Origin: Prosthecobacter sp.
GTDB lineage: Bacteria > Verrucomicrobiota > Verrucomicrobiia > Verrucomicrobiales > Verrucomicrobiaceae
Direction: 5' to 3'
DNA: 64,000 nt
Assembly: GCF_034366625.1 (NCBI RefSeq)
Contig: NZ_JAXMIH010000008.1
Span: 806,001-870,000 of the forward strand
Part shown: positions 40,640 through 48,048 of the stretch, one piece after another
Layout of the letters: every line of letters begins with the position of its first letter
Position numbering within the stretch: position 1 is the first letter of the stretch
Notes under the pieces: model-generated
What the model saw: the letters and a program-made list of their open reading frames with translations, nothing else
Told to the model about the DNA's origin: nothing
The model's database searches: none
Position numbers and translations under genes: made by a program

Positions 40640-41494
40640 CTATGCCACGCCTCTTCGTTTGCTGAACAGTCCGTATTTCGGACTGAAAATGTAAGCGAGG
40701 AGGAAAAAGGTGCCGAGGACGACGATGATGGTGGCGCTGACGCTCCAGCCGAGCGGATACGAGAGGAAAAAAGCGATCACGGAGCCGACAGCACCCAAAA
40801 TCCCGCCGCCCCAGAACAGGGTGCGGGCGTTGTTAGTCAGGAGATAAATCGTGGCGGCGGGAGCGACCATGAGGCCGACACTGAGGATGCAGCCGACGGC
40901 TTGCAACGAGGACACGAGCACGAGGATGGTGACGGCGAAGGTGGCGTAGTTTAGCAAACGCACGGGCACGCCGAGGCTGGCGGCGATGTTCGGCTCGAAC
41001 AGGTAGATGAGCAGCGGGCGCTGCAAGGCGGTGAGGGTGATGACGGCGATGGCGCTGATGCCGAAGGCGATCCACAGGTCGGAGTCGGCCATGCCGATGA
41101 TGCTGCCAAAGAGCCATTCATCAAGCTTCTGGCGCACATCGAGATTTTTGAGGATCAGCAGGCCGGCGGCGAAGGCAGTGGTGTAAAGCACGCCCATGGC
41201 GGTGTCTTGATCGAGCCGGGAAGTGCGGGAAAGGAAGATGGAGCCGAGCCCGACGATGAGCGCGGCGAAGATGGCACCAATAAGAGCGCTCCATTGCGAG
41301 AGGCCGGCGATCAACACGGCCACGGCGAGTCCTGGCAGCAAGGAATGCGAGATGGTGCCGATCTTGAGCGCGGATTTGCGCAGCACGACGAAGGCACTGA
41401 CAAAGCCGTTGGAGAAACCGATCATCAAACACGCGAGCAGGGCGCGTTTGGCGATGGGTTCGGCGAGGAAGTCGGTGATCGTGGGCAGCGGCAT
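40640..41494 (-). CDS. znuB: Zinc ABC transporter permease (ZnuB-like)
   Basis: From the ATG at 41494 the protein is 284 residues with about 8-9 TM segments of the ABC-3 family. Markers: ACLMIGFSNGFVSAFVVLRK (TM1), ISHSLLPGLAVAVLIA, SRTSRLDQDTAMGVLYTTAF, and PNIAASLGVPVRLLNY with the conserved G of the coupling helix. The in-frame extension to 41914 overlaps the ATPase and is discarded. It is the last gene of the minus-strand zinc operon, just 8 bases after the ATPase stop. Confidence 0.9.
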   Translation of the reverse strand: MPLPTITDFLAEPIAKRALLACLMIGFSNGFVSAFVVLRKSALKIGTISHSLLPGLAVAVLIAGLSQWSALIGAIFAALIVGLGSIFLSRTSRLDQDTAMGVLYTTAFAAGLLILKNLDVRQKLDEWLFGSIIGMADSDLWIAFGISAIAVITLTALQRPLLIYLFEPNIAASLGVPVRLLNYATFAVTILVLVSSLQAVGCILSVGLMVAPAATIYLLTNNARTLFWGGGILGAVGSVIAFFLSYPLGWSVSATIIVVLGTFFLLAYIFSPKYGLFSKRRGVA

Positions 41495-41502
41495 GCTCGT
41501 GG

Positions 41503-42296
<794 letters not shown>

Positions 42297-42306
<10 letters not shown>

Positions 42307-42722
42307 GAGAAGGTGATGACTTCATCGAGACTGCCTGCGGCGGACCAGCGTGTCTCGCTGCGTGCTTCGAGACCGTCGGGCTCAAGTTCGAGCGTGAGGG
42401 CGGTGTCGGGTGTGTTTGCCGGCCAGGTGGCGCTGAGGAAGACATCGACGCCATCCTTGGTGGAAGGCAGCACGGCATCAACTTCGAGCGGCGAAGTGTC
42501 GGCGTTCGTGATCAGCTCCTTGTCGGCGATCTTGAGGCTCAGCGTGGTTGGTTTATGAGCAAAACGCAGACGCAGCAGCGCTTTTACGCTTTGGGTGTCT
42601 TTGGCGGCGACTTTGACGACCTTGGCGTTGCTGGTGTTACCAGTCAGATGGCTCAGCGGCACCGCCAGCACGATGAACGCGAGGCAGAGCAGAAAAATCT
42701 GAATGGGCGGAAAGCCACGCAT
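42297..42722 (-). CDS. Membrane-anchored protein of the zinc operon, unknown
   Basis: The 141-residue protein has an N-terminal TM anchor (IFLLCLAFIVLAVPLSHL), then a periplasmic domain of about 110 residues with alternating hydrophobic strands (ALLRLRFAHKPTTLSLKIAD, VFLSATWPANTPDTALTLEL, DEVITFSWK), suggesting a beta-sandwich. It lies 2 bases after znuA and overlaps znuC by ten bases, so it is surely part of the operon. I recognise no family. Candidate roles are periplasmic zinc handling or partner of ZnuA. Confidence 0.7.
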
Positions 42723-42724
42723 GA

Positions 42725-43621
42725 TTATTTCGCGGGAGCAAGAGCAGCGACGAGGGCGCGGACGTTGTGCGCGAGCATCGTTTCAAAGGTGTGCGCGGTC
42801 TTGGCGGTGCCGTCAGCGATGAGCGGATCGCCAATCTTCACGCCAGTGCTGCGGGCGATCTCGGCGAGAACTTTGGGATTGGCCTGGTCTTCAGGGAAGA
42901 CGGCCTTGATGCCATGCTCGCGGATTTCCGCGATGGTTTCGGCGACGTGTTTCGAGTCGGCATCGTCGCTGCGACCGACACCGAGGAGGGAGATGGGTTC
43001 AAAGCCGAACTCTTTGCAAAAGTAACCGAAGGCGGCATGCGCGGTGACGAGTTTGCGGTCTGCACGGGAGATCTTGGCGATTTCCTTCTGCGCCCAGACT
43101 TTGAGTTCGCCGAAGCGCTTGGAGGCGGCCTTGGCACCGGCTTCGTAAGCAGCGGCGTTCGCGGGATCGGCGGCGCTGAGTTCATCGGCCACGATGCGGG
43201 CGGCGCGCTTCATGTTTTCGGCGCTGTGCCACCAGTGCGGGTCAAACTGGCCGTGATGGTGATCATGGTCGCCATCGCCGTGATCGTGATTGCAGACGTA
43301 AGGGATGGAGGGGATTTTTTCGCCGACTTCGACGAGCTTGATGCTAGCGCCGAGGCTGTCGCGCAGCTTGTCGAGGTAGGTTTCGAGTTCCTTGCCGGAG
43401 GCGAGCAGCAATTTGGAGCCACGCATCGCGGCGATGTCCTTTGGTGCTGGCTCAAAGTGATGGATGTCACCGCCAGGCTTGAGGATTTCGATGACTTCGA
43501 CATTCGCGCCGCCGACCTGCCGGGCGAGATCGGCCACGATGGGATGCAGCGAGGCGACTTTGAGAGGAGCGGCCTGACCGATGGCGAGAGACAGCGCAAA
43601 AGCTGCGAGGATGGTTTTCAT
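42725..43621 (-). CDS. znuA: Zinc ABC transporter substrate-binding protein (ZnuA-like)
   Basis: From the ATG at 43621 the protein is 298 residues with a signal peptide (LAAFALSLAIGQAAPLK). It shows the cluster A-I fold: SLHPIVADLARQVGGANVEV, the first metal His region GGDIHHFEPAPKDIAAM, the His-rich loop HDHGDGDHDHHHGQFDPHWW, AHAAFGYFCKEFGFEPISLL (third His) and the ending PEDQANPKVLAEIARSTGVK with the Glu/Asp ligand. The His-rich loop favours zinc over manganese. It heads a four-gene operon and has a Zur-like palindrome 44 bases upstream. Confidence 0.93.
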   Translation of the reverse strand: MKTILAAFALSLAIGQAAPLKVASLHPIVADLARQVGGANVEVIEILKPGGDIHHFEPAPKDIAAMRGSKLLLASGKELETYLDKLRDSLGASIKLVEVGEKIPSIPYVCNHDHGDGDHDHHHGQFDPHWWHSAENMKRAARIVADELSAADPANAAAYEAGAKAASKRFGELKVWAQKEIAKISRADRKLVTAHAAFGYFCKEFGFEPISLLGVGRSDDADSKHVAETIAEIREHGIKAVFPEDQANPKVLAEIARSTGVKIGDPLIADGTAKTAHTFETMLAHNVRALVAALAPAK

Positions 43622-43664: not shown

Positions 43665-43681
43665 TTGCAACTTGATTGCGA
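43665..43681. promoter_or_regulatory. Predicted Zur-like operator upstream of znuA
   Basis: TTGCAACTTGATTGCGA is an imperfect 7-3-7 dyad 44 bases before the znuA start. It shares 14 of 17 positions with the perfect palindrome at 45908-45924 upstream of the zinc receptor. Confidence 0.55.
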
Positions 43682-43682
43682 A

Positions 43683-44144
43683 TTAGGCTTTGCGCTTGGC
43701 TGCTTTCCGTTTCGCGAGTTTCAGTCCCGCCTCGATGATCTGAGTGCGGAGTTTTTCGAGGCAGGCTTTCCAGGTGGCGGGGCTGATGGGGAGGTAGCGG
43801 TCGGTGCCGTCGGGGAAGCGCTTGGTTTCGAAGATGTTGCTGGGCTGCTGGATGAGGTCGTCGTAGAGGCCGTGGATGAAGAAGGTGCGGGCGTCGGCGC
43901 CGTCGGGCCAGGGGCTGGGGTGGCCCTCGGCCTCGCGGATGGCCGCTTCGATGGCGCTGAGGATCTCGACGGGGTTGAGCGTGATCTTGAGCGGTGCGCC
44001 GGATTTCAGGTAGTCGGCGATGGCGATCTGCACTTTGCCGAGGACGGCCTGGATTTGCCGCAGGTCGGCAGGGGCTTCCGCCGCAATGAGCTGTTTCAGC
44101 TCAAGCTCGGCGCGGGTGGCTTTTTTGGAGCGTTTGGTGGCCAT
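43683..44144 (-). CDS. Hypothetical basic protein
   Basis: From the ATG at 44144 the protein is 153 residues, with Lys/Arg-rich ends (TKRSKKATR; AKRKAAKRKA) and a middle containing LKITLNPVEILSAIEAAIRE and ARTFFIHGLYDDLIQQPSNI. No signal peptide or TM. I recognise no family. Its stop lies two bases beyond the predicted Zur operator, so it is probably not part of the zinc operon but sits upstream of it. Confidence 0.55.
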   Translation of the reverse strand: MATKRSKKATRAELELKQLIAAEAPADLRQIQAVLGKVQIAIADYLKSGAPLKITLNPVEILSAIEAAIREAEGHPSPWPDGADARTFFIHGLYDDLIQQPSNIFETKRFPDGTDRYLPISPATWKACLEKLRTQIIEAGLKLAKRKAAKRKA

Positions 44145-44226
44145 TCGGCGGCATTTTGCATTGATTGGTCGTCTGGCCAAGGGCTGGAGGAAAAACTATT
44201 CAGCACTCCTTCTCCAAAAACTCAAA

Positions 44227-44331
44227 TTCGCGGATATTCGCGCTCATTGGCGAGCATTCGCGTTAAAAAATGGCTCATGCCTTCAGGTCTCAACGCGAAT
44301 GGCCGCGAATATCCGCGAATGAGCACGAATA
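44227..44331. repeat. Inverted repeat made of 10-bp units
   Basis: Left arm (44227-44266): TTCGCGGATA, TTCGCGCTCA, TTGGCGAGCA, TTCGCGTTAA, four 10-bp units. Right arm (44292-44331): AACGCGAATG, GCCGCGAATA, TCCGCGAATG, AGCACGAATA, the inverse orientation. A 25-bp spacer separates them. It lies in the 282-bp gap before selO, where no gene is supported. Confidence 0.75.
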
Positions 44332-44394
44332 AAAACCCCTCCTGAATCAGTTCCTTTTCTGGCAGGAAACGCTGCTGCCGGGCTCGTCTCCTTC

Positions 44395-44412
44395 GCGGAA
44401 TCGGAATTCCGC
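44395..44412. repeat. Hairpin just upstream of selO
   Basis: GCGGAAT-CGGA-ATTCCGC is a perfect seven-base stem-loop 14 bases before the selO ATG. It could hinder ribosome access or be a REP-like copy. Confidence 0.55.
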
Positions 44413-44426
44413 GCTACAACGTCTGC

Positions 44427-45860
44427 ATGCCCAACTCATCTGACACACTCAGTTCACCAGCCGGCTGGCGGCTGGATCACTCCTATGCGCGGCTGCCACA
44501 GTCGTTTCATATGCGGATCAATCCGACGCCGGTGAGTGAGCCGAAGATGGTGGTGCTGAACCGACCACTGGCGGAGGCTTTGGGACTGAATACGGACGAC
44601 TTGAACGATGCGGCGATCTTTGCGGGCAATGCGCTGCCGCCGGGTGCGGAACCGCTGGCGCAGGCCTATGCGGGGCATCAATACGTGCATTTCACGATGC
44701 TGGGCGATGGACGGGCGATCCTGCTTGGCGAGCAGATGACGCCGAGTGGCGCACGGTTTGACATCCAGCTCAAAGGACCGGGCCCGACGCCGTTTTCGCG
44801 TCGTGGGGATGGTCGCGCGGCATTGGGGCCGATGCTGCGGGAATACATCATCAGCGAGGCGATGCATGCGCTGGGCATTCCGACGACGCGCAGCCTCGCG
44901 GTTGTCAGCACGGGTGAAAAAGTTTGGCGGCAGGATGGTGGACTGCCCGGCGCGGTGCTCACACGCGTGGCGGCCAGTCACATTCGCGTGGGCACATTTG
45001 AGTATGCGGCGGCGCGTGGGGAGAAGGATGCGTTGCAAGCACTCGCGGATCACACGAGGCAGCGACACTACCCCGAGCTTGAAGGTGACTATGCAGCATT
45101 CTTTGAGGCCGTGATGGAGCGGCAGGCGACGTTGATCGCGCAGTGGATGCACGTCGGTTTCATTCATGGCGTGATGAACACGGACAACATGGCCCTCAGC
45201 GGCGAGACGATCGACTATGGGCCGTGTGCGTTCATGGACGCATATGATCCGGCCACGGTCTTCAGCTCGATTGATCGCAATGGTCGCTACGCGTATGGCA
45301 ATCAGCCGCACATCGCGCAGTGGAACCTAGCGCGGCTGGCTGAGGCGATGCTGCCGTTGTTTCACGACGATGAAAAACAGGCCATCGAGATCGCGAACGA
45401 GGCGATTGGGAGTTTCGAGGCGCGTTTCAAGCGCCACTGGCTCGCAGGCATGCGGGCGAAGCTGGGCTTGTTCACGGCGGAGAGCGATGACACGGCGTTG
45501 ATTCAATCGCTGCTTGAATGGATGCAGGAAACGAAGGCGGATTTCACGAACACCTTCCGTGATCTGACGAATGGCCGCCTGGAGCCACTGGAATGGCATC
45601 AGCGGTGGTCCGAACGGCTCAAGCGGCAGCCACAATCGGCCAGTGATGTGACTGATCTGATGCGTCGGCACAATCCCGCCTTCATTCCCCGCAATCACAA
45701 AGTCGAGGAAGCGCTGGCCGCCGCCTCGGAGCATGGCGATCTGAATCCTATGCAGCGTTTGTTGACGGTGCTGGCCGATCCCTATGATCACACCCAGGAT
45801 TTGCCTGAGTTCAGTGAGCCTGCGGATTCGACCGGGTATCAGACGTTCTGCGGGACATGA
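44427..45860 (+). CDS. selO: Protein adenylyltransferase SelO (YdiU/UPF0061 family)
   Basis: The 477-residue protein is the length of E. coli YdiU. It has [20 protein letters not shown], the nucleotide region [40 protein letters not shown], then [20 protein letters not shown] and AFMDAYDP. The C-terminus ends YQTFCGT with Cys antepenultimate, where eukaryotic SelO has selenocysteine. SelO is a pseudokinase-fold enzyme that AMPylates protein targets in oxidative stress. It has no visible operon partner. Confidence 0.95.
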
Positions 45861-45907
45861 TCCGTTGGCTATGGTGGGAGAGGGGATTAAATACAAATAG
45901 TTTGCAA

Positions 45908-45924
45908 TTGCAATATGATTGCAA
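45908..45924. promoter_or_regulatory. Predicted Zur-like operator upstream of the zinc receptor
   Basis: TTGCAATATGATTGCAA is a perfect palindrome with 7-bp arms and a 3-bp spacer, 31 bases before the receptor ATG. A further half-site TTGCAA abuts it at 45902-45907. Confidence 0.6.
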
Positions 45925-45954
45925 TAAATGGGTGGATCATTCGAATCCACGCCC

Positions 45955-48048
45955 ATGAAAATTCCCCTGCCTTCGTATTTTTTAACCGCTGCGCTGTCTT
46001 TGACTGCTGTGGGTTTTAGCACGGCCCAGACAGCTTCTCGCATCGAGAAACTTGCGAGTCAGCCGACGTTGCAGTCTGAGATCGCGATGGATGAAATCGT
46101 TATTTCTGCCCCGCTGGACCGACCGCTGTTTCAGCAGGCGCAGGCGACTTCGGTACTGACTGGGCAGCCGTTGAATCTGGCGATTGAGCCGTCCCTGGGG
46201 CAGACACTGGCGCGGCTGCCGGGGGTGAGCAGTTCGTATTTCGGGCCGGCGGCGAGTCGGCCGATCATTCGCGGGCTGGATGGGGACCGCGTGCGCATTT
46301 TGCAGAACGGACTGAACACCATCGACGCCTCCTCGGCCAGCCCAGATCATGCGGTGAGCTTTGATGTGGCAAATTTGAAGTCGGTGGAGGTGATTCGCGG
46401 TCCGGCGACGCTGCTGTATGGCTCGAACGCCATCGGGGGCGTGGTGAACGCGATCGACGGGCGCATCGTGGATGAAAAACTTGATGGGACGATCCGTGGC
46501 TCGATGGGCGGACGGTTTTCCTCCGTGGACAGCGGCTATCAGTCGAATGCGATGCTCGAAGGCGGCTGGAAAGGACTGGCCTTTCATGTGGAGGCATTCA
46601 CACGGGCGGCGGAAGATTTCCACATTCCGGGAAACGCACGCACCGTGGGCGAGCAGGAGCGTAATCCGCTGCCAGCGGGTGATCTGGAGCCGAGCAAGAA
46701 CGTGCCAAACAGCCATCTGCGCTCGGAGGGCGTCTCCGGTGGTCTGAGCTATGTTTGGGAAGGTGGCTTTGTGGGTTTCGCGTGGACGGAGTTTCACTCA
46801 CTCTACGGGTCACCGGCGGAGCCTTCAGTCTTCATCGATCTGAACCAGACGCGTCTGGATGTGCGCGGTGCCTTTTACAAGCCGCTGCCACGCATCAAGG
46901 AGATCAGCTACCGCTTTGCGTGGTCGGATTACGAGCATGTGGAATACGAGGACGGCATGGACAACACCGTGTTCAAAAACGACGGCTATGACGCCCGTGT
47001 GGAGGTGAAGCATGAAAAGATCGCGGGCATGGAAGGCGTGGTGGGTTTTCAATCGGACCGTAGCGATTTTCTCATCGCCGGAGCGGAGGCGTTTCTGCCG
47101 CCGAACATCACGCAGTCGAACTCGCTGTTCTTCTTTGAGGACATCACGCGGGGACCGCTCAGCTTCCAGTTTGGCGGTCGTTACGACCACATCTCGGTGG
47201 AGGCGCTGGACAACGATGTCTTCGGCCCGGCGCGCAGCCGCACGTTTGACAACTTCAGCGGTTCGGTGGGAGTCGTCTTCAATCCCAATGACGAGTACTC
47301 CGCCGCGTTCACTGTCACGCATGCCGAACGTGCGCCGACCAGCCAGGAACTCTATGCCAACGGTGCGCATCTGGCGACGAACACCTTCGAGGTCGGCAAT
47401 GCGGATCTCGGCGTGGAAAGCTCGCTTGGCTTTGATTTGAACCTGCGCAAACGCACCGGCTGGGTCACGGGTAGCGTCAGCGGCTACTACAACCGCTACA
47501 ACGACTTCATCGGCCAGTTCCCCACCGGTGTCATGGTGGACACGGACGGTGATCTCATCGGCGACACGCCTGAGTATGCTTACACGGCTGTGGCGGCCCA
47601 GTTCATCGGCGCTGAACTGGAGACTACTTTTCATCTGCTGCATCCCGTCACTACGGAGCAGCAGGCAACCACGAACCTGAACTGGGAATTCAAGGCCGAC
47701 GCCGTCCGCGCACGTGACGCCAGCACCGGACGCTCGCTGCCGCGCATCCCGCCGTTCCATCTCTCCAGCGCATTGATCGTCGAGCGTGGACCATTTGGCG
47801 CGAAGCTGGAGGGCATTTATGCCGCTCCCCAGGCTCGTGTGGCCGCCAGCGAGTTTGGGACTGACAGTTACTTCCTCGTCAATCTCACGCTGAGCTATCG
47901 CGTGGTGCAGGGGCCGACGACCATCGATTTGTATGTCAAAGGCATGAACCTCACCAACGAGGACGCCCGTGAGCACACCTCCTTCCTCAAAGAACGTGTG
48001 CCGCTGCCAGGCCGTGGCATTGTGGCTGGTATGAAAATGACGTTTTGA
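45955..48048 (+). CDS. znuD: ZnuD-type TonB-dependent outer-membrane receptor
   Basis: From the ATG at 45955 the protein is 697 residues with a signal peptide ending near TAAL-SLTAVGFSTAQ. Residues about 45-170 are the plug: LGQTLARLPGVSSSYFGPAA, SRPIIRGLDGDRVRILQNGL, ASSASPDHAVSFDVANLKSV and GPATLLYGSNAIGGVVNAID. These specific motifs (FGPAASRPIIRGLDG..SPDHAV) are those of ZnuD-type zinc receptors. The beta-barrel ends in a C-terminal Phe (VAGMKMTF). TonB/ExbBD supply energy. The operator palindrome upstream supports zinc control. Confidence 0.9.
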   Translation: MKIPLPSYFLTAALSLTAVGFSTAQTASRIEKLASQPTLQSEIAMDEIVISAPLDRPLFQQAQATSVLTGQPLNLAIEPSLGQTLARLPGVSSSYFGPAASRPIIRGLDGDRVRILQNGLNTIDASSASPDHAVSFDVANLKSVEVIRGPATLLYGSNAIGGVVNAIDGRIVDEKLDGTIRGSMGGRFSSVDSGYQSNAMLEGGWKGLAFHVEAFTRAAEDFHIPGNARTVGEQERNPLPAGDLEPSKNVPNSHLRSEGVSGGLSYVWEGGFVGFAWTEFHSLYGSPAEPSVFIDLNQTRLDVRGAFYKPLPRIKEISYRFAWSDYEHVEYEDGMDNTVFKNDGYDARVEVKHEKIAGMEGVVGFQSDRSDFLIAGAEAFLPPNITQSNSLFFFEDITRGPLSFQFGGRYDHISVEALDNDVFGPARSRTFDNFSGSVGVVFNPNDEYSAAFTVTHAERAPTSQELYANGAHLATNTFEVGNADLGVESSLGFDLNLRKRTGWVTGSVSGYYNRYNDFIGQFPTGVMVDTDGDLIGDTPEYAYTAVAAQFIGAELETTFHLLHPVTTEQQATTNLNWEFKADAVRARDASTGRSLPRIPPFHLSSALIVERGPFGAKLEGIYAAPQARVAASEFGTDSYFLVNLTLSYRVVQGPTTIDLYVKGMNLTNEDAREHTSFLKERVPLPGRGIVAGMKMTF

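Follow-up and report, generated by a model that had tools for sequence, protein, structure and literature searches.

A putative Zur-type zinc regulon in Prosthecobacter: znuA and a ZnuD-type receptor gene share a probable TGCAA-N5-TTGCA operator

Introduction

In Acinetobacter baumannii, znuA and the divergent zur-znuCB operon are probably both served by a single Zur box located between them, and ZnuD receptors belong to the same regulon (passages of PMC3516566). In Escherichia coli, Zur binds the znuABC operator as two dimers (PMC4219657, in excerpt). Here we describe a related arrangement in Prosthecobacter sp. (assembly GCF_034366625.1), in a stretch of 64,000 nucleotides (contig NZ_JAXMIH010000008.1, positions 806,001 to 870,000; hereafter the window). 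The window encodes the zinc importer ZnuABC and a ZnuD-type TonB-dependent receptor, and the promoters of znuA and of the receptor gene share a palindromic box, which is very probably the operator of a Zur-type repressor.

The Prosthecobacter locus resembles that of A. baumannii in having a box upstream of znuA and a ZnuD-type receptor among the genes concerned. However, the A. baumannii box was identified using the gamma-proteobacterial consensus AATGTTATAWTATAACATT, whereas the Prosthecobacter dyad is TGCAA-N5-TTGCA. Paired boxes at the receptor gene suggest the same number of dimers as in E. coli, but the two E. coli dimer sites overlap, while the boxes of Prosthecobacter are complete dyads that abut with a 17-bp pitch. 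The consensus is identical to that given for the Streptomyces Nur box, tTGCaa-N5-ttGCAA (PMC3919588, in excerpt); Nur, unlike the regulator proposed here, is a nickel regulator of superoxide dismutase genes, and the Prosthecobacter targets are zinc-type. COG0523 and HisI genes, named as Zur-regulated in passages of PMC2770081, also lie beside the box in relatives of Prosthecobacter sp. The site tables of that paper, in contrast, cover Bacilli, proteobacteria, and Cyanobacteria, and its main text does not contain the string "Verrucomicrobi". Passages of PMC3087516 name Zur sites only for Actinobacteria, Bacilli, and Proteobacteria, and a limited literature search, mostly by title and the start of the abstract, found no report of a Zur box in Verrucomicrobiota.

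Operator boxes in the window

The initial annotation, made from the sequence of the window, had pointed to two similar 17-mers, one upstream of znuA and one upstream of the receptor gene. Both are present where it placed them (43665–43681 and 45908–45924) and, as it said, are identical at 14 of 17 positions. Each is a TGCAA-N5-TTGCA dyad. When read as a 7-3-7 dyad, the receptor site pairs at 7/7 positions and the znuA site at 5/7. There are 43 bases between the znuA box and the znuA ATG (43621), and 30 between the receptor box and the receptor ATG (45955). A third box, overlooked by the initial annotation, occupies 45891–45907, immediately next to the receptor box.

Past the receptor box and ahead of the receptor ATG is a short hairpin of seven pairs (45932–45950); the number of terminator-like structures in the hairpin scan was at the level of chance.

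The rarity of these sites in the genome, whose 30 contigs total 6,645,079 bases, depends on how they are described. When up to three mismatches are allowed, the joint pattern of the two 17-mers is about as frequent in the window as chance predicts (4 matches against 4.11 expected). Exact matches are confined to the two sites themselves in 6.65 Mb, but the pattern had been derived from them. The pattern WTGCAANNNNNTTGCAW, derived from relatives, was found with one mismatch at 14 places in the genome, as compared with 3 for a reversed control; the znuA box and the two receptor boxes account for three of the 14. Ten of the other 11 fall inside open frames of at least 279 codons, although one of these ten (L075/L265; G and L numbers are our own identifiers) was classed as intergenic in a separate gene calling. 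In its 17-bp form the motif is not common throughout the genome. No genome-wide enrichment was seen for the looser core TGCAANNNNNTTGCA when one mismatch was allowed (78 places, 76 for the control). Among the 50 of these 78 places that were listed, 49 lie within the 45 stretches of the genome examined; eight of the 49 are intergenic by our gene calls and no more than 250 bp from the start of a called gene, and two of the eight are the receptor box pair.

Conservation of the box in relatives

Conservation was assessed in 35 genomes of the genus, 25 of which have a close orthologue of the receptor and 24 of which have enough DNA upstream of it. The receptor of G021, whose upstream stretch is cut by a contig end, was omitted, and its partner znuA was counted. 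Genes in relatives were called by a codon-score script alone. The box, with at most one mismatch, is located upstream of all 24 receptor orthologues (exact in 18) and upstream of 25 of the 30 znuA genes scanned, and so is not absent from homologous promoters. The best of 59 permuted half-sites used as a control reached 3/24 receptors and 2/30 znuA genes. Conservation is specific to a spacing of 5, aside from spacings 0 and 11, where the signal is due to tandem boxes. Paired boxes exactly 17 bp apart (each with at most two mismatches, and one of the two with at most one) occur in 23/24 receptor promoters of the genus, that of the window included.

For receptor-bearing genomes, 23 of 24 znuA genes have the box, two of the 23 being weak and overlapping the start codon (G013 and G028). 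In genomes in which znuA and the receptor gene are adjacent, the two counts cover the same DNA. The 11 receptor-bearing genomes without such adjacency have the box at 11/11 receptors and a convincing box at 7 of the 10 znuA genes scanned. The box is kept while the flanking DNA changes, and it recurs at unlinked genes of other genomes.

The same dyad emerged from a census of znuA upstream regions in Prosthecobacter, Verrucomicrobiaceae, and neighbours (79 loci and the window; these 80 regions were reduced to 71 by removal of near-copies, and locus L216, which has no upstream DNA, is outside the census). Among all dyads of a 5-mer and its reverse complement at spacings 0–11, TGCAA-N5-TTGCA ranks first, being exact in 13/71 regions and present with one mismatch in 29/71, with shuffled half-sites reaching no more than 2. 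The dyads ranked next, TGCAA-N11-TTGCA and TTGCA-N2-TGCAA, are those expected from tandem boxes. Other stretches of the same loci contain the box in 38/1624 cases, some of which are perhaps receptor promoters. Across 39 genomes of the genus, exact WTGCAANNNNNTTGCAW occurs at 52 places, as compared with 9 for its reversed control.

Other genes carrying the box

We examined 17 regions of relatives chosen for holding an exact box. In seven of these, a COG0523 (cobW) GTPase gene, assigned by Pfam, starts within 125 bp of the box. The NCBIfam cut-off for ZigA (600) is passed by the gene proximal to the box in L133 (627), L138 (610), L140 (606), and L141 (610), and by the next gene along in L136 (609) and L147 (612). 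A further pair, a hisI-family gene and the COG0523 gene that follows it, also has a box in front. Because zigA-type and hisI-family genes carry the box, zinc is favoured over nickel as the metal concerned; the targets found are zinc-type, and no search aimed at nickel genes was made.

The COG0523 promoters of L136, L139, L140, L141, and L147 contain two boxes exactly 36 bp apart, as opposed to 17 bp at the receptor gene. Siderophore-type TonB receptor genes with an upstream box, possibly encoding zincophore receptors, are found at L138:1748–3865, divergent from zigA, and at L146:653–2725. Genes with a FeoB-type Gate domain lie beside the box at L139:2677–4311 (which has a GTPase domain as well and a COG0523 gene nearby) and L143:4549–5376, and are candidates for zinc-regulated transporters. 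In three genomes the box is just upstream of a dCTP deaminase (dcd) gene (L137:14606–15190, L138:6795–7379, and L142:4724–5308), a possible and unexpected member of the regulon; the family was scanned in L137 only, and the L138 and L142 proteins begin alike. Boxes also precede a peptidase gene (L132) and other genes. These further neighbours, from the siderophore-type receptor genes on, may be zinc genes, may mark chance sites, or may mean that the motif is not purely zinc-linked.

A candidate regulator

The genome to which the window belongs encodes three Fur-family proteins. The third, L010, is encoded on another contig (C23:315204–315677), and its relatives are linked to the proposed targets elsewhere. 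G049 (locus L116), from a different family within the order, has an exact box and then, all in one direction, znuA, znuC, znuB, and a Fur-family gene. G010 and G030 have boxes within gene clusters that also contain COG0523 genes and a Fur-family gene. In G001, a Fur-family gene lies near a COG0523-like gene, with no box (at most one mismatch) in the stretch read. The Fur-family proteins of these four genomes match L010 with E values of 3e-37 to 5e-41, and the two other Fur paralogues with values of 1e-6 or weaker. Outside the genus, the box was found before znuA in 6/9 genomes that have an L010-like protein and in 1/10 that do not; this comparison used a threshold of 100 bits set by us, omitted G040 and G055 for their weak best znuA matches, and drew six of the ten genomes lacking the regulator from one genus.

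There are weak hints from the sequence that L010 may regulate itself. A weaker site lies before the operon of an esterase gene and L010 in the genome of the window (L264:4684). Such a site is found at this place in 14 of 30 L010 loci (7 with one mismatch and 7 with two) and not in the other 16, one of which has hardly any upstream DNA. GCAAA and CTT are invariant in 12 of the 14 sites, which were selected for having a site.

History of the two promoters

The initial annotation had considered shared ancestry of neighbouring DNA unlikely here, the two genes being divergent with other genes in between. That argument fails. In 14 of the 25 receptor-bearing genomes znuA and the receptor gene are divergent direct neighbours; the roughly 150–270 bp that separate them contain the boxes and leave no room for selO. 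In the remaining 11, the two genes are apart or on different contigs (the assemblies of G014 and G016 are fragmentary). A small gene without family and selO lie between them in the window and in G032, and further genes do so too in G004.

A ZnuA tree (31 rows, without G007, G008, G014, G017, and G018) shows adjacency in both branches of the deepest divergence among genomes that carry the receptor, so that adjacency is the simplest ancestral state, requiring two changes; the split arrangement looks derived. The position of G026, which has adjacent genes and is placed among genomes with split ones, is poorly supported. From these comparisons, the two promoter sites of the window probably descend from one divergent operator region that was later split by other genes.

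Genes of the locus

Coordinates of the features are collected in Table 1. The best structurally solved relative of the receptor is ZnuD (4rdr, E 1.5e-54), and its top NCBIfam match is also ZnuD (NF038289), at 325 bits against a cut-off of 950; as the cut-off is not passed, we call it ZnuD-type. Its start is most plausibly the ATG at 45955, which is followed by a signal-peptide-like beginning.

The 141-amino acid protein encoded between znuA and znuC has no match in Pfam or NCBIfam. A similar protein occurs at this position in relatives examined (e.g., L117, L118, and L120), and it may be an accessory component of the importer. ZnuC has a Cys/His-rich N-terminal stretch, HVCWGGGGKHTHHH, with similar ones in relatives, which is possibly a metal-binding tail. 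The gene at 43683–44144 likewise matches no Pfam or NCBIfam family; a similar gene is present in L117, L118, and L145. In G005, which has no receptor match, znuA is preceded by a gene for a 427-amino acid protein (L149:1458–2741) whose start is signal-like and for which Pfam has no family.

Table 1. Genes and putative operator boxes of the znu-receptor locus, in window coordinates.
Feature	Position	Strand	Remarks
znuB, membrane subunit of importer	40640–41494	-	Pfam ABC-3, 1.6e-49
znuC, ABC transporter ATPase	41503–42300	-	Pfam ABC_tran; ATG start, TTG start at 42306 possible
141-amino acid protein, no family, between znuA and znuC	42297–42722	-	Inside znu operon
znuA, zinc-binding protein of ABC importer	42725–43621	-	Pfam ZnuA, 9.3e-68
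Putative operator box upstream of znuA, TTGCAACTTGATTGCGA	43665–43681		Same position in several relatives
Protein without family match, between both promoters	43683–44144	-	61 bp upstream of znuA, same strand
selO, between both promoters in this lineage	44427–45860	+	Pfam SelO
Second putative box of receptor promoter, ATACAAATAGTTTGCAA	45891–45907		Abuts box at 45908–45924
Putative operator box upstream of ZnuD-type receptor, TTGCAATATGATTGCAA	45908–45924		Perfect 7-3-7 dyad
ZnuD-type TonB-dependent outer-membrane receptor	45955–48048	+	Pfam plug and barrel

Discussion

Features that mark a Zur regulon are found together here. Its members include zinc-uptake genes (znuA, znuB, znuC, and the ZnuD-type receptor gene), its palindromic operator is shared and conserved in relatives, a Zur-like protein is present and target-linked in relatives, and zinc-starvation genes (zigA and a hisI-family gene, in relatives) have the operator. 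We consider the box a putative Zur-type operator because it is conserved, because it stands before zigA, hisI-family, and znuABC genes together with a Zur-like gene, and because it co-occurs with an L010-like protein. On these sequence comparisons, a putative Zur-type zinc regulon is well supported. The boxes of the window very probably serve a Zur-type repressor as operators, L010 being the likeliest candidate; they would co-control znuABC and the receptor gene, and they probably arose by the splitting of one region. The suggestion of a zinc regulon under a Fur-family regulator such as Zur, already made in the initial annotation, thus holds as regards the operator shared by znuA and the receptor gene, on the strength of conservation, other target genes, and co-occurrence with L010-like proteins, and falls as regards the separate ancestry of the sites.

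We infer binding, the zinc signal, repression rather than activation, and the presence of two dimers at paired sites by analogy with described regulators. With enough zinc, zinc-loaded dimers would occupy the TGCAA-N5-TTGCA dyads and block transcription, one dyad being filled before znuA and two abutting dyads, which may hold two dimers, on a 17-bp pitch before the receptor gene. In zinc shortage the dimers would leave, and inner-membrane ZnuABC and the outer-membrane ZnuD-type receptor would be switched on together. The ancestral control region, divergent between znuA and the receptor gene, would have been split once selO and other genes came between them.

Several observations weigh against this interpretation. 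One clade (G013, G015, and G028) has no convincing znuA box, and in genomes of the genus without the receptor the box precedes only 2 of the 6 znuA genes scanned, though an L010 orthologue is present in 6/6. Of the nine genomes outside the genus that have an L010-like protein, three lack the box, one with only 186 bases scanned. The genome of the window itself has two CobW-family matches with no box (one mismatch) nearby and has no box-bearing zigA-type gene, and a simple scan found no sigma-70-like promoter. Elsewhere, boxes stand before siderophore-type receptors and unrelated genes. The site at 45908–45924 fits the Nur operator tTGCaa-N5-ttGCAA in full. L010 does not reach the cut-off of the NCBIfam Zur equivalog NF008646 (32.5 bits, cut-off 167), its top NCBIfam matches are Fur models, all far below their cut-offs, and the solved structures closest to it are those of Fur proteins. 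Because L010 falls below the NF008646 cut-off, "Zur" denotes here a proposed function and not a model assignment.

The scores of L010, which are best with Fur models, together with the two boxes before siderophore-type TonB receptors (L138 and L146), would suit iron operators under a Fur paralogue, L008. This has a small chance of being correct, given that the gene content is mostly zinc-type and that the Fur-family proteins found with znuABC and COG0523 genes resemble L010 and not L008. A nickel-sensing, Nur-like regulator, with importer and receptor serving nickel, would account for the form of the operator and is marginally less probable still: the closest families of the targets are ZnuA and ZnuD, and the box precedes genes that pass the ZigA cut-off and a hisI-family gene, kinds described as Zur-regulated in passages of PMC2770081. 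That the likeness of the sites is due to chance, or is a leftover of split neighbouring DNA with no regulatory role, we regard as very improbable even with their shared ancestry being probable, since the box has persisted amid changing flanks and recurs at unlinked genes in other genomes.

Returning to a Zur-type repressor, a broader proposal is possible, and we make it tentatively, with more doubt than confidence: Verrucomicrobiaceae may have a separate Zur subfamily acting on a Nur-type TTGCAA-N5-TTGCAA operator, with abutting pairs on a 17-bp pitch at the receptor gene and with a regulon that extends past the uptake of free zinc to siderophore-like receptors (possibly for zincophore uptake) and a FeoB-like permease.

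Since one operator sequence seems to be used for nickel in Streptomyces and for zinc in Prosthecobacter, the box by itself does not reveal the metal. The locus probably also exemplifies a control region between divergent genes that other genes have come to interrupt, with boxes retained in both halves. What appears to be new is the combination, in Verrucomicrobiota, of a putative Zur-type regulon and an operator sequence of the Nur type, and the outcome for this phylum is a testable putative Zur box along with a candidate for its regulator.
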